A stretch of DNA of 64,000 bases from NCBI GenBank assembly GCA_021780225.1, contig JAJXZF010000026.1, positions 1 to 64,000 on the forward strand, given 5' to 3'. A program made the translations under genes and the position numbers. The DNA is from Deltaproteobacteria bacterium (lineage in GTDB: Bacteria > Desulfobacterota > Binatia > Binatales > Binataceae). Shown one piece after another: positions 2,502-7,757 of this stretch (the first letter of the stretch is position 1; the number at the start of each line of letters is the position of its first letter). The notes under the pieces are model-generated. The model was not told the DNA's origin and did not search any database. It saw nothing but the letters and a program-made list of their open reading frames with translations.

Positions 2502-3300
2502 ACGCGCTCAGAATCTGCTTTTTGATTTGAGAACGCCGACCACGCGATCATCGCGGCGCTGCGGAACATCGGGACCACGCCGGCGCCGGAATCATGATGG
2601 ATGCCCGGGTCAAGCCCGGGCATGACGAATGAGGGGCGCAATCGATGGATGCCAACATCGCGCCCGGGCATGACGATCAAGAGCGCCGGCATACGGCAAG
2701 CGGGACGCTCTGGCTGCCGCGATCGCACCGCGCGTTCATTAGCAAGTCATTCGCGAGCTAGACCGACTCGAGCGCTGGACGTTTTGGCAACATCGTCCGG
2801 CGACACGCCAAATAGTCATTCGCGGGCTTGACCCGCGAATCCATAACGTCGCGGCGTCAGCGTGGTGAATGAATGATCTCCGCAAGCGCGCGGACGGCGG
2901 TTAGCGCGCGGCCACGAGTCGGCATGATGGCAGCACGCGGCAAGTTTCCGCACGCCTTCGAGGGCACGCGAGGATTCAACCCGGCGATTCCATCACGTAT
3001 TTTTATGGCGGTACGCCGCCGGCATTGCGGACTATACTGAGATTTCCTTCTGATACGTTTTCAGTCATGGCCGGATTTGATCCGGCCATCCACGGCGTCT
3101 CTTCATTCCGAGCGGAGTCCACGAGGCGAAAGCCTGCTCTGAGTCCGAAAAAGGGAATCCCGGGATTCTTCGGCTGCGCCTCAGAATGACAAATCGAGAA
3201 ACGCAAGCAGACGGTTGGAATGTCGAATAGGATCTGCGCTCAGGTTTTCCCGATACGACGACCGTCGTGACCGTGTCTTGAGCGGCCCGCACAGAGAAAC
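2502..3300. repeat. gene-free cluster of short palindromic (REP-like) repeats
   Basis: About 800 bp without a credible gene. It holds several palindromes of one design: GTCAT-like flank, GC-rich arm, CTTGA-type loop, complementary arm, ATCCA-like flank. Clear units lie at 2601-2623 (arms ATGCCCGGG/CCCGGGCAT), 2818-2840 (ATTCGCGGG/CCCGCGAAT) and 3067-3089 (ATGGCCGGA/TCCGGCCAT). Decayed units lie near 2645-2680 and 2750-2775. A longer imperfect inverted repeat of the CATTCCGAGCGGAG...CTCAGAATGACA type spans about 3103-3192. Short ORFs here translate the repeats (MPG-D-PGIH-like peptides) and are not genes. Confidence 0.75.
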
Positions 3301-3345: not shown

Positions 3346-3882
3346 TTACGCGTTGTCGCGCGAGGTCAGCGCTTCGATCACCTGATCCACAATCGCGTCG
3401 GCCTTCGCGCGCATCTCGTCATCGTTCGCGTCCTGAATCGGATGCGGCACGAAGACGCGCTTCAGCTCCGGCAATCCCAGCGCCTCGGCCTGCCGCGCCG
3501 CCGCATCGACGAAACCGGTCGAGGCGACGACCACCGCCGGCCGCGCATTGATTTCAAACCATACTGAATCGTGCACACTGCACGTTGTGCACGACCCTCA
3601 ATCGGCCAGCGCTTCGATTACGCAATCGCTCTCCTCGGCGATCCGCTTGCGCAGATCCTCGGGCGCGGGCTTGGCGAAGGTCGGCTTGCTGAAACGCTTG
3701 ACCTCGACGCCCGGCAGGCGTTCGGCCAGCCGCGCCGCCAGCCGATCGAGCAGCACGTCGCCGCGCGGCTTGCGGATATCAAGCAGCGCGACGCGGCCGC
3801 GCAGCGCCGCAGGCCGGCGCGCGAGCGTGCGCCGGACGGGCGCAAGCTCCGCCGTGGGATCGACAATTTCGAATCCGCTCAT
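3346..3882 (-). CDS. UGSC-family selenoprotein (in-frame UGA decoded as selenocysteine)
   Basis: ATG 3882 (preceded by GAGGAGG) opens MSGFEIVDPTAEL and runs to EALAD at an in-frame TGA (3600-3598). Reading straight through gives UGSCTTCSVHDSVWFEI and a further 75 or so residues to the stop at 3346. ALADUGSC...VHDSVW is the signature of the UGSC selenoprotein family, so TGA is read as Sec95 of a 178-residue protein. An ORF caller sees two fragments (76 aa with its own Met, and the upstream part). A perfect 9-bp hairpin starts 3 nt after the UGA. The family is thought to be a thiol/selenol redox protein (U-G-S-C and a second Cys); its substrate is unknown. It overlaps the upstream thioredoxin-like gene by ATGA, implying translational coupling. 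sel genes must lie outside this window. Confidence 0.88.
3569..3594 (-). promoter_or_regulatory. bacterial SECIS-like hairpin downstream of the Sec UGA
   Basis: On the minus strand TCGTGCACA (3594-3586) pairs perfectly with TGTGCACGA (3577-3569) around an 8-nt loop, ACGTGCAG. The stem begins three bases after the UGA codon (3600-3598) and the loop lies 12 bases after it, close to the geometry of known bacterial SECIS elements. These lie inside the coding region just 3' of UGA and are bound by SelB. The loop contains a GU step, but its first two bases are A and C, so it is not a perfect fit to the usual apical-G rule. Confidence 0.7.
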
Positions 3883-5477
3883 GGAACCTCCTCGATCCGG
3901 CGGCTGACGCTCATCGAGCCGGCCGGCCCGCCGAACCATCCGCCGAACACCGCCGTGAATTTGCCGGCTTCGCCGCCGGCGACAATCATCGCGATATTTT
4001 CGGGCTTGCGAAACTTCATTACCAGCGCGTCGAGCTCGGCGGCGCCGGGCGCCGCGCCGAGGCCGAGCATCGCGGGCGACATCCCCTCGCCGATTTCCGG
4101 GCCGGGCAGCAGGTCGCGGGCACGGCGCGCGCTGACCTCAAGGATGCGTTCGCGGATTTGCGCCTTGCTCCACTGGTCGCGCGCGAAGGTGTCGGCGTGC
4201 TCGGGCGAGATCACCAGCAGCACCTCGCCGAGGCGATACGCTTTCGGATGCGTCGCGGCGGCGAGGAAGGCGCCGAGGCTGCCGCCGAGCGCGCGCGCGG
4301 TGCGGGCCGTATGGTCGCTCATCTGATGCGATCCCGATTCGAGGCCGAAGAGCGTGACCACGCTGTCGTCGCGCGCGAAGCCGCGTTCGACGTGGAGCGG
4401 CTCCCACGGGCTGCGCTCCTCCCATTCCGCTACGCACATCGTGAACTTGCCGGCGGCGCCGAGCGTCGAGCGTTCGATTTCGCCGGGCCGCGCGCCGCCG
4501 ATATTGCGCAGCGCGAGCTTGAGCGCGCGGCCGATCGTCGCGTTCGGACGAAAGCCCGAGCCCAGCGCCTGAATCCCCATGTTCATCCCGAGCCGCCGGC
4601 GAATCGGGCCGTTGACGACGATGATCGGCGTCGCGCCCGCCGTGGTCGCCATGATGCCGTGGGCGTTGAAGGCGTCGGTGCAGGCGGCCTCGAGCGCCGC
4701 GATCACGACCGGCAGATATTCGGGACGGCATCCGGCCATCACCGCGTTCGCGGCGACCTTTTCGACCGTCGCGGGCGCTAGGTTGGGCGGAACGATCGCG
4801 ACGACTTCGAGCGGATCGCGCCGCGTGCCGGCGAGCATCCGCGCGACCCGCTCGGGCGTCGGCGGAATCGCCGGCAGGCCGTCGGTCAGCCCCTGCTCAA
4901 ACATGAACTCGAACGGATCTTGCGCCGCGCCGAGCGCGATTCGCCGCGCGCCCTTCCGGCGGCCGGCCGCCTCCGCGGCGAGACGTTCCGCAATTTCCGG
5001 CTCGACCGATCGCGAACCGCATCCGGGGCGCGTCTCGGGAAATTCGCCCCAATCGATTCCTGGCGCCGCGACGGCGGTGCGCACCACCAGATGCGCGACC
5101 AGATCGCGCCAGTCGCCGCGATCGAAGCCATCGAAGCGGCGCGAGATCGTTCCGTCCGCTTCGGCAAGAATCACGGTCGGCACGATTTCGACGTCGCAGG
5201 CGAACGAGAGCTTGAGCGCACTGTCATCGAGCATCGGCAGCGTCAGCCGATGGCGCTCGATAAGCGCGGCGTTGCCCGCCGCCTCCTGCCCGACCGCGGC
5301 GATATCGAGCGCGCCGCCGAAATGACGATAAAGCCGTTCGAGGATCGGCAGCGTAAGGTCGCAGGTCGGACAGCCGTCGTGCACGAAGCAGAGCAGCGCG
5401 TCGCGCCCGAACGGCAGCGTCCAATCGCGTCCGCGCTGATCGCGCAAAACGATTTGCGGCAAGGCCGAGGGTTTCAT
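3879..5477 (-). CDS. thioredoxin-fold protein fused to a UGSC-associated conserved domain
   Basis: This is a 532-aa protein. Residues 1-130 form a thioredoxin/AhpC-TSA-like domain with a redox CxxC in FVHDGCPTCDLTLPI and a cis-Pro-type VPTVILAE segment. From about residue 185 a conserved domain begins with GLTDGLPAIPPTPERVARML. It includes AVMAGCRPEYLPVV, TPIIVVNGPIRRRLGMNMG and a Gly-rich end, VAGGEAGKFTAVFGGWFGGP. I recall this second domain as a widespread family of unknown function that occurs next to UGSC proteins; that is memory, not a search. Its stop overlaps the UGSC start by 4 nt (ATGA), so the two proteins are probably made in fixed ratio and may form a dithiol/selenol relay. The protein appears cytoplasmic: no signal peptide is seen. 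Confidence 0.75.
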   Translation of the reverse strand: MKPSALPQIVLRDQRGRDWTLPFGRDALLCFVHDGCPTCDLTLPILERLYRHFGGALDIAAVGQEAAGNAALIERHRLTLPMLDDSALKLSFACDVEIVPTVILAEADGTISRRFDGFDRGDWRDLVAHLVVRTAVAAPGIDWGEFPETRPGCGSRSVEPEIAERLAAEAAGRRKGARRIALGAAQDPFEFMFEQGLTDGLPAIPPTPERVARMLAGTRRDPLEVVAIVPPNLAPATVEKVAANAVMAGCRPEYLPVVIAALEAACTDAFNAHGIMATTAGATPIIVVNGPIRRRLGMNMGIQALGSGFRPNATIGRALKLALRNIGGARPGEIERSTLGAAGKFTMCVAEWEERSPWEPLHVERGFARDDSVVTLFGLESGSHQMSDHTARTARALGGSLGAFLAAATHPKAYRLGEVLLVISPEHADTFARDQWSKAQIRERILEVSARRARDLLPGPEIGEGMSPAMLGLGAAPGAAELDALVMKFRKPENIAMIVAGGEAGKFTAVFGGWFGGPAGSMSVSRRIEEVP

Positions 5478-5546: not shown

Positions 5547-6779
5547 TCAGCGGCCGACCACGAACGCGCAACTGGTGGTGCCGCTGCCGCCGATATTCAG
5601 GACGGCGAAGCGCTTCGCGCCTTTGACCTGATAGTCGCCGGCGTTGCCCGTGACCTGGCGCCACGCGTCGAGCATCTGGCGCACGCCGGTCGCGCCGACC
5701 GGATGGCCCGCGCCGATCAAGCCGCCGCTCGGATTGATCGGGATGCGCCCGCCGAGTTCGATCGCGCCCGCTTCGACCGCTTTCCATGATTCGCCGGGCG
5801 CGGTGATGCCGAAGTGGTCGATCGCCATGTACTCGGACGTGGTGAAGCAATCGTGGGTTTCGATTCCCGAAAGCTCGTTCACCCCGCCGACGCCGGCGCG
5901 CGCGAAGGCGTCGAGAATGGCCTGGCGCGTATGCGGCAGGACGTAAGGATTGTCGCGGCTCTCGGCGATTTTCGCGTCGAATTCGAGCGGCGCGGTATGA
6001 TGGCCCCAGCCCTCGATGCGTGGCACGTCCACGAGGTTTTTGCCGTTGCGTTTCGCCCATTCGGACGCGTACTTCTCCGATGCGAGCATCACGACCGCGG
6101 CGCCGTCGGTGACCTGCGAACAATCGCGCACGCGGATGCGGCCGGCGATGTGCTGGTTGAATTTCGCCTGCTGCTGCTCGTCTTCCTTGTTCATCACCCA
6201 ACCGCGGGTCTGCGCGAGCGGATTGAGCCGGGCGTTGGCGAAATTGATTTCGGAAATCCGCGTGAGATGCTCTTCCTTGAGGCCGTAGCGCTTGTCGTAT
6301 TCGTCGCCGAGGCGGCCGAACAGGCGCGGGAAGGGATAATCCTTGCCCTTGCATTCGCGCTCGTACCATCCGGCGGTGCCGAGGAAGTCGCCGCCGGTGA
6401 CGGTATCGACCGTCTTCATCTGCTCCAATCCAACCGCCGCCGCGAGATCGTAGCGGCCCGCCTCGATTTCCGCCGATGCGGCCAGAATCGCGATCGAGCC
6501 GGACGCGCAGGCCGCCTCGTGGCGGCTGGTCGCGATTCCCGAAAGCACGGGATCGGCTTCGAGCACGAAGGCGCCGACCTGGCCCTGCTTCGCGTAAAGT
6601 TCCGCCGCGAAGTTGCCGACGTGCGCCGTCTGGACCTCGCGCGGTTCGATTCCGGCCGCTTCGAGCGCACCCAGCAGCGCCTCGTTCATCACGCTGGAAA
6701 AATGTTTGCCCTCGCGCGCCCAGTTGCGGGCGAAATCGCTCTGGGCGCCGCCCAGGATGAAAACTGGCGATTGTTTCAT
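5547..6779 (-). CDS. thiolase family protein (acetyl-CoA acyltransferase / SCP-x type)
   Basis: This 410-aa thiolase has the acylatable Cys91 in EAACASGSIAIL, the active-site His in IETHDCFTTSEY, GGLIGAGHPVGATG near residue 345, and the second catalytic Cys in GGSGTTSCAFVV at the C-terminus. The ETHDCF and C-terminal signatures match the SCP-x/unclassified thiolase branch rather than classical FadA or PhaA. It would cleave 3-ketoacyl-CoA or condense acyl-CoAs in the cytoplasm. It lies 70 bp upstream of the thioredoxin-UGSC pair and downstream of an SDR, all on the minus strand. A CTCTCC/GGAGAG Shine-Dalgarno precedes the start. Confidence 0.9.
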   Translation of the reverse strand: MKQSPVFILGGAQSDFARNWAREGKHFSSVMNEALLGALEAAGIEPREVQTAHVGNFAAELYAKQGQVGAFVLEADPVLSGIATSRHEAACASGSIAILAASAEIEAGRYDLAAAVGLEQMKTVDTVTGGDFLGTAGWYERECKGKDYPFPRLFGRLGDEYDKRYGLKEEHLTRISEINFANARLNPLAQTRGWVMNKEDEQQQAKFNQHIAGRIRVRDCSQVTDGAAVVMLASEKYASEWAKRNGKNLVDVPRIEGWGHHTAPLEFDAKIAESRDNPYVLPHTRQAILDAFARAGVGGVNELSGIETHDCFTTSEYMAIDHFGITAPGESWKAVEAGAIELGGRIPINPSGGLIGAGHPVGATGVRQMLDAWRQVTGNAGDYQVKGAKRFAVLNIGGSGTTSCAFVVGR

Positions 6780-6896
6780 GATGAAACTCTCCTTCGATCG
6801 CGGCCTGAGGCAGGGCCGCCGCCGTTCCTCGTTACTAATCTAATAGCACCCTTCGCGCCGCGCTCCACTACCTCGTAAGCGGCGCGGCGGACGGGT

Positions 6897-7652
6897 TCAA
6901 GTGCGCAGCATCAGGCCGCCGTCCGCGCGGATTCCGGCGCCGGTTACGTAGTCGGCGTCGGACGAGGCGAGGAACAGCGCCACTTTCGCCATGTCTTCGG
7001 GCTGGCCGAGCCGGCGCAGCGCGGTCTTCTTTTCCCATACGGCGCGAATGTGCTCGCGGTCGAAATTGGCGCGCGTCAGGCCCGTGTAGATCGGGCCGGG
7101 CATGATGTAGTTGGCGCGGATGCCGTGCTTGCCGTATTCGAGCGCGACGGTGCGGGTCAAACCGGCGACGCCGGCCTTCGACGAACAATACGGCGCGAGG
7201 CCGTAGTCGGTCGCCTCGGCCATCACGGAAGCGACGTTGACGATACTGCCGCCGCCCGCCTGAATCATCGCCGGAAGCGCGGCGCGGATCAGCAGGAATT
7301 GAGCGCGCACATTGATATTGTGCACGCGGTCCCATTCCTCGATCGACATTTCCGCCGTGAGCGCGTTGCTGCCTACGCCCGCGTTGTTCATCACCGTCGT
7401 GAGCTTGCCGAATTTCTCCACCGCGGTCTCGACCAGCCGGAACGCGGTCGCCTCGTCCGCGATGTCGGCGGCGACGCCCACGCTGTCGTGGCCGCCCGCC
7501 GCGAGCAGCGCCTGCGTGCCCTCAGTCCCGCCTTCGGAGACGTCGCAATGCACGATTTTCGCGCCTTCGGCGGCGAACAGCAGCGCGCTTGCGCGGCCGA
7601 TGCCCGAGCCGGCTCCGGTCACTATCGCAACTCTGCCTTCCAGCCTCTTCAT
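6897..7652 (-). CDS. SDR family NAD(P)-dependent oxidoreductase
   Basis: This is a classical short-chain dehydrogenase of 251 aa from ATG 7652, which has GGAGG 9 bases upstream; an in-frame start at 7682 lacks such a site. The cofactor motif is TGAGSGIGRA (near residue 10), the structural motif NNAG follows, and the catalytic Ser-Tyr-Lys set sits in VNVASVMAE and YCSSKAGVAG. In the catalytic position the sequence reads APYCSSKAG, giving the required YxxxK. The C-terminal VTGAGIRADGGLMLRT is typical of the FabG-like group. It probably oxidises a 3-hydroxyacyl or other secondary alcohol substrate and may feed the thiolase downstream; the substrate is unknown. Confidence 0.88.
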   Translation of the reverse strand: MKRLEGRVAIVTGAGSGIGRASALLFAAEGAKIVHCDVSEGGTEGTQALLAAGGHDSVGVAADIADEATAFRLVETAVEKFGKLTTVMNNAGVGSNALTAEMSIEEWDRVHNINVRAQFLLIRAALPAMIQAGGGSIVNVASVMAEATDYGLAPYCSSKAGVAGLTRTVALEYGKHGIRANYIMPGPIYTGLTRANFDREHIRAVWEKKTALRRLGQPEDMAKVALFLASSDADYVTGAGIRADGGLMLRT

Positions 7653-7757
7653 CGGAAAACCTCCGTCGCGGAAAGCGCCCACGATAGCGCATCGCCATGC
7701 GTTGGCGCACGCGAAACGCCAGCGTTCCCGCGCGCGCCTATGCTATTTTAACGGGCC

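Follow-up and report, generated by a model that had tools for sequence, protein, structure and literature searches.

Does the TGA at codon 95 of a short minus-strand reading frame end a protein or encode selenocysteine, and, in the latter case, in what kind of enzyme might the selenoprotein take part? The frame lies in a stretch of 64,000 nucleotides (the window), for which a preliminary description had proposed a UGSC-family selenoprotein of 178 residues, starting at ATG 3882 behind a good Shine-Dalgarno sequence and with UGA read as Sec95. We recovered the same frame: 178 codons, beginning with ATG 3882 and closed by the TAA at 3346, of which only codon 95 is an in-frame TGA. The protein around it reads ...EALAD-U-GSCTTCSVHDSVWFE..., with 83 residues C-terminal of Sec; the Shine-Dalgarno sequence is given in Table 1. 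The ATG overlaps the stop codon of the gene upstream (ATGA), hereafter the partner gene.

Table 1. Features of the UGSC locus and of the overlapping partner gene (window positions)
Feature	Coordinates	Strand	Remarks
UGSC selenoprotein CDS	3346..3882	minus	178 aa, Sec95 (UGA) and Cys98
SECIS-like hairpin core CGUGCA-GUG-UGCACG	3570..3584	minus	13 nt downstream of the UGA
Sec UGA codon, residue 95	3598..3600	minus	TGA in 57/57 site-reaching homologous loci
Shine-Dalgarno AGGAGG	3887..3892	minus	4-nt spacer to ATG 3882; read by eye
Partner gene, 532 aa	3879..5477	minus	thioredoxin/ResA-like N-terminus and C-terminal unnamed domain; stop overlaps UGSC start codon
Partner C-terminal unnamed domain, about 340 aa	3882..4901	minus	fused to UGSC in other bacteria
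CPTC motif, partner residues 36-39	5361..5372	minus	CxxC in 48/50 relatives spanning it

As the preliminary description had foreseen, a list of open reading frames that respects stops splits the gene in two: an ORF of 113 aa that starts at an upstream ATG (3598-3939), and one of 76 aa whose start is an internal GTG (3346-3576). These are precisely the two products expected by mechanical ORF calling if UGA95 were a true stop, dividing a 94-aa (or 113-aa) protein from a separate 76-aa protein that begins at GTG 3576. The homologues argue against that division. A pattern-seeded scan of a species-genome collection returned 61 loci. The Sec position is covered by 57 of them, and in every one of the 57 the codon is again TGA and the frame stays open beyond it, so that the situation the preliminary description had held against its own reading, homologues that all end at the UGA, does not occur. 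Three loci (L078, L079 and L081) were left out of this count because their matches end before the site, and an apparent Cys homologue, L080 (TGC), was dropped because its frame departs from the family ahead of the site. The nearest homologues, at 95-97% identity, are in metagenome-assembled genomes labelled Deltaproteobacteria or plain bacterium; further ones, at 74-75%, belong to Candidatus Binataceae. In eight pairs with relatives, dN/dS was 0.10-0.25 on the 3' side of the TGA and 0.01-0.31 on the 5' side, values that point to purifying selection on both flanks. The internal GTG falls within the post-Sec helix of the AF2 model, the hairpin that follows the UGA covaries (see below), and at 13 loci the UGSC domain is fused in frame, through the TGA, to a long second domain. 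A true stop at codon 95 is, in our judgment, barely conceivable. A conventional annotation of this locus would thus put two false ORFs in place of one selenoprotein.

TGA has been reassigned to a standard amino acid in some other lineages, and a genome-wide reassignment of this kind, or a sequencing error that produced the TGA, would also account for an open frame. Against these explanations, the partner gene, in the same operon, itself terminates at TGA (3879-3881), the genome encodes Sec machinery, and the TGA is seen again in independently assembled genomes. We consider either explanation extremely improbable.

According to excerpts of PMC1088965, a bacterial SECIS element is a stem-loop that follows the UGA immediately and carries a G in its small apical loop. 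The window has such a stem-loop after the UGA, with an apical loop of GUG and 19 nt from the UGA to the loop G. For the 50 nt counted from the UGA the folding energy is -18.8 kcal/mol, and the z relative to dinucleotide shuffles is -3.79 (equalled by 1 of 200); among nine other sequences folded, only L025 has a z below -2 and one is positive. Against synonymous recodings the window has a z of -2.2, and 58 sequences have a mean of -1.05, with 31 of 58 below -1 and some positive. Because the z values are mixed across homologues, stability alone is a weak argument for the hairpin, and covariation is the stronger one. The core stem is paired in 99.6% of cells in an alignment of 38 distinct sequences, hand-chosen for diversity among the window sequence and those of the 57 loci, and in 92.6% after the addition of 27 loci from the phylum (65 distinct sequences). 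There are 34 two-sided changed cells, as compared to 6.0 +/- 2.1 in shuffles (none of 500 as high) and at most 21 in slid versions, and the covariation score is 0.347, as compared to 0.155 in shuffles (again none of 500 as high) and at most 0.129 in slid versions. The number of stem pairs with two-sided change, five of six, is unexceptional, being reached by 69 of 500 shuffles. One variant of the stem, CGUGGA/UCCACG, changes the protein from TCSVH to SWSIH with pairing preserved. The stem is not kept in roughly ten distant paralogues, and a search of the window with Rfam gave no match to a SECIS family.

The selenocysteine reading had been made to depend on finding selA, selB, selC and selD elsewhere in the genome, with the absence of selB or selC named as a ground for giving it up. 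The window's genome has selB (370 bits), selD (387 bits) and selA (567 bits), each above its cut-off, as well as a tRNA-Sec with anticodon tca, and its selD has an in-frame TGA of its own. Taken with the TGA that is kept and read past in 57 of 57 site-reaching loci and with the covarying hairpin, these genes bear out the assignment of UGA95 to Sec, and we regard it as nearly certain that UGA95 is decoded as Sec by way of a downstream hairpin (SECIS) and that the 178-aa product is a bona fide UGSC-family selenoprotein. Three tRNA-Sec genes (tca) are present in this genome (G000:C18:23069-23160, C18:25930-26021 and C70:11402-11488, our loci L009 to L011). The first two are about 2.9 kb apart, each in a copy of a 281-nt repeat (96% identity), and the third is embedded in 269 nt that are 84% identical to the first; this is possibly an integration site. 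In the other 18 genomes of the class, among the matches listed, only G217 has two matches above 52 bits.

Across the phylum, selA is found in 183 of 198 genomes and in 21 of the 22 genomes with UGSC matches, an overlap that is no surprise given the base rate, so only the exception is informative. In that exception, G092, no selA was found, and the UGSC match, a weak partial one of 61 bits, reads CGSC with codon TGC, supplying the Cys homologue that the preliminary description had proposed to look for; this is the replacement of Sec by Cys that is expected where Sec decoding is absent. G092 also has a match to the tRNA-Sec model at 50.8 bits, which we did not count as a tRNA-Sec because a tRNA-Ser of the window's genome scores nearly the same (49.6 bits).

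The membership in the UGSC family, which had been proposed from the signature around the UGA, was borne out by profile searches. The read-through protein matches the Pfam UGSC family PF24696 at 165.4 bits (1.8e-48, cut-off 25) and the NCBIfam family NF041046, "UGSC family (seleno)protein", at 160.3 bits (cut-off 125); the 76-aa piece alone scores 60.6 bits against PF24696 and 66 bits against NF041046, the latter under the cut-off. The gene is the sole family match in its genome. It shares with the family the UGSC motif, a UGA-coded Sec and a SECIS-type hairpin, and there is no difference in kind, the UGSC gene here being separate from, and overlapping, its partner instead of fused to it. The preliminary description overrated the novelty of the find: the family was described in PMC2398784, where the excerpted text counts, in GOS, 255 forms with Sec and 21 with Cys, and is curated as NF041046 and PF24696. 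Selenoproteins with a UGSC motif are also mentioned in excerpts of PMC5330540, for genomes in which tRNA-Sec decodes UAG. The UGSC family was published in 2008 or earlier and is curated but functionally uncharacterised, and the window gene is a further member of it.

We inspected an alignment of 47 members, picked by hand for diversity, in which only P9, Sec95 and Cys98 are invariant; L026, in which Phe replaces Cys98 (UGSF), is not among these rows. A third cysteine after the UxxC motif, C101, is present in 28 of 28 rows of a close-homologue alignment and is replaced by W, Y, G or A in many distant members of the 47-row alignment. Within the phylum, 22 of 198 genomes have UGSC matches at E <= 0.001 and 10 have matches above the family cut-off. 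From 50 matches outside the window's own, 29 loci were fetched; this set shares one locus with the set of 61, L083 being from the same genome as L021. Five paralogues, in the genomes G033 and G048, lack both Sec and Cys at the position that aligns with the Sec site. G033 has 18 UGSC matches in one genome (among them L099, L109 and L144-L147), mostly in long open frames; those examined extend into or towards the partner domain, and in several the Sec/Cys site is gone. By eye, some of the G033 copies have signal-peptide-like starts, as do L092 and L094 in other genomes.

The overlapping upstream gene is a near-constant partner of UGSC genes. A homologue lies inside the fetched flank at 53 of the 61 loci; of the other eight, L033 and L054 are near contig ends, and seven of the eight genomes have the partner elsewhere, the genome of L054 having none. 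All 29 fetched loci of the phylum have a partner match within 1.5 kb or fused, and in 13 of them the UGSC and partner domains form a single open frame through the TGA. Counted with a profile built partly from the same loci, 23 of the phylum's 198 genomes have the partner domain. Every one of the 22 genomes with UGSC matches is among them, and the additional genome, G169, has a weak partial match. A hypergeometric figure for this co-occurrence ignores kinship and serves as an index only.

The N-terminal part of the partner resembles thioredoxins, with ResA as the best match among PDB sequences (E 1.6e-4), and falls under the Pfam and NCBIfam cut-offs; its identification as thioredoxin-like is a weak one, suggested by such matches together with the conserved CxxC. 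No thioredoxin-like region was seen in the 13 UGSC fusions. For the C-terminal domain, Pfam gave no match to the window copy or to that of L084 and only noise for the L098 copy (E 0.13 and worse), there was no NCBIfam match in four copies, and a best E of only 0.084 against PDB sequences. A model of a fused UGSC/partner protein (pLDDT 88.6) gave no Foldseek match at E <= 0.001. Its VIA rows span mainly residues 23-308, and for that reason the fold of the partner domain should not be called new. Excerpts of PMC2398784 describe a fusion of UGSC to a domain termed Unknown_1, which, like our 13 loci, joins UGSC to a second conserved domain, whereas in the window the second domain is in its own gene, behind the thioredoxin-like region. 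We would guess, from description and not from alignment, that the partner domain and Unknown_1 are the same. It is left as a guess because, according to the same excerpts, domains fused in this way generally contain a conserved Cys, which clashes with the partner domain, where no Cys is invariant in 19 rows.

Upstream of the partner, at 5547-7682 on the minus strand, there are a thiolase (PRK06289-like) and, judged by eye, a short-chain dehydrogenase. These were considered and rejected as parts of the system: they are evidently not needed, because that order beside the pair is found only in L021, L022 and L024 (the flank of L083 is too short).

In the AF2 model of the UGSC protein (pLDDT 93.4, pTM 0.87), five strands alternate with five helices, and residue 95, modeled as Cys, is immediately ahead of the third helix, after strand 3, which suggests a three-layer alpha/beta fold. 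In Foldseek, FMN azoreductases (E 1.5e-5, TM 0.48) come first, and the matches that follow include lumazine synthases and flavodoxins; VIA-align returned many alpha/beta folds at Z 9-11. The fold is a common one and indicates no function. No solved UGSC relative was found by sequence, the best PDB matches being FtsY chains at E of about 1.

The thioredoxin fold has the order beta-alpha-beta-alpha-beta-beta-alpha. The predicted model does not have this order, as its strands and helices alternate throughout and the strands number five. This matters for the possibility that the UGSC protein has a Trx-like fold and serves as a general disulfide or peroxide reductant, as its UxxC motif might suggest and as published statements would have it: in the excerpted text of PMC2398784 UGSC is "likely Trx-like", and in that of PMC13188914 it appears in a list ending "exhibit a Trx-like fold", where the portion of the list that is meant is ambiguous. 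In the model, however, Sec sits just before the helix that follows strand 3, the structures most like it are azoreductases and similar alpha/beta proteins, and in hhalign the probability is 0.6% against a thioredoxin profile derived from the N-terminal part of the partner and 96% against GrdB. The model and the profiles disagree with the published assignment, and we think a Trx-like reductant improbable.

Profile comparison is more specific than the fold. Aligned by hhalign to six GrdB proteins of the phylum, each read through its own TGA, the 47-member UGSC profile gave 96.1% and an E of 3.5e-9 over 88 columns, with Sec on Sec (read as Cys in both profiles). The match was weaker against a short PrdB-like set (79.8%) and with the close UGSC homologues alone (89.7%). 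The score of 66.8 may be compared to 60 column-permuted controls (mean 14.4, maximum 20.8) and to control scores of 16.0 for the thioredoxin profile, 14.3 for the partner domain and 20.3 for reversed GrdB; with Sec masked it is 56.2, and with UGSC and C101 masked it is 41.4. The match is confined to UGSC residues of about 82-176. Shared with the C-terminal Sec domain of the GrdB/PrdB-like family (PF07355) are the Sec after a strand, UGxC, an E-x-x-GIP helix end and a late HP motif, but UGSC is without the N-terminal part of GrdB. When 28 members were compared with Pfam at E values of 10 or less, 11 families were listed and PF07355 was not one of them; in this range HMMER filters drop most matches above 0.1. 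We infer that the Sec half of UGSC is a remote homologue of the GrdB C-terminal Sec domain and not of thioredoxins. A GrdB/PrdB-like gene in the window's genome (L124, G000:C47:19993-20364) has an in-frame TGA (PAUPVCHQS) and is a probable further selenoprotein.

The likeness to GrdB does not extend to the large domain of the partner, which had no match to the GrdB profile (0.1%). In GrdE, a pyruvoyl group is derived from Cys; the partner domain has no invariant Cys, and therefore a group of that kind is not indicated for it. D-proline reductase has a Cys-derived pyruvoyl as well, according to a reference title in PMC13188914, and in excerpts of the same paper GrdB is the substrate-binding subunit of glycine reductase, with a UxxCxxC motif.

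With the recoding, the family, the partner linkage and the relationship of the Sec half to GrdB supported at the level of sequence, the explanation that we find best as a whole, and quite probable, is a recoded UGA95 in a GrdB-related, two-part enzyme made with the partner. That the pair is a Sec reductase with GrdB-like chemistry at Sec95 and Cys98 is a narrower proposal, which we favor by a little. The UGSC protein would be one half of the enzyme, and the partner's domain of about 340 aa would probably be for the substrate. The Sec95 selenolate would attack a small substrate at an electrophilic centre, the product would depart while a selenenylsulfide forms between Sec95 and Cys98, and the CPTC region of the partner might then re-reduce the Sec95-Cys98 bond.

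A different use of the same residues can be imagined, in which the pair binds or detoxifies a metal, a metalloid or an electrophile through a Sec/Cys cluster (UxxCxxC), with no reductive cleavage. The constancy of C101 among the close homologues would fit such a cluster, but its loss in many distant members, which leaves P9, Sec95 and Cys98 as the residues kept throughout the 47 rows, does not, and we recognised no metal-linked gene among the neighbours that we looked at. We consider this reading unlikely, and prefer the two-part Sec reductase. More speculatively, and with doubt slightly outweighing belief, UGSC and the partner domain could be a widespread class of GrdB-related Sec reductases outside the clostridial amino-acid reductases, with a thioredoxin reductant inside the partner and a paralogue expansion (18 matches in one genome) presumably serving different substrates.

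Passages on UGSC selenoproteins in the papers searched make no mention of a GrdB relationship or of a thioredoxin-bearing partner, and the GrdB passages of PMC13188914 do not name UGSC. As far as searched, then, two additions made here are not in print: the link of the Sec half to GrdB, and the overlapping thioredoxin-like partner whose domain is fused to UGSC elsewhere. Together, the GrdB link and a partner domain found in nearly the same genomes as UGSC turn an "unknown selenoprotein" into a testable two-protein enzyme.

Two smaller observations may be added. L065 (CAMBZJ010000022.1), titled as a Klebsiella pneumoniae metagenome-assembled genome, has a UGSC gene 60% identical and a partner 49% identical to those of the window, and its organism label looks doubtful. 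In the window itself, ORF translations at about 2550-2830 and 3003-3206 have repeated MPGLDPGIH or PGMT-like stretches, which might be what short interspersed intergenic repeats could give.
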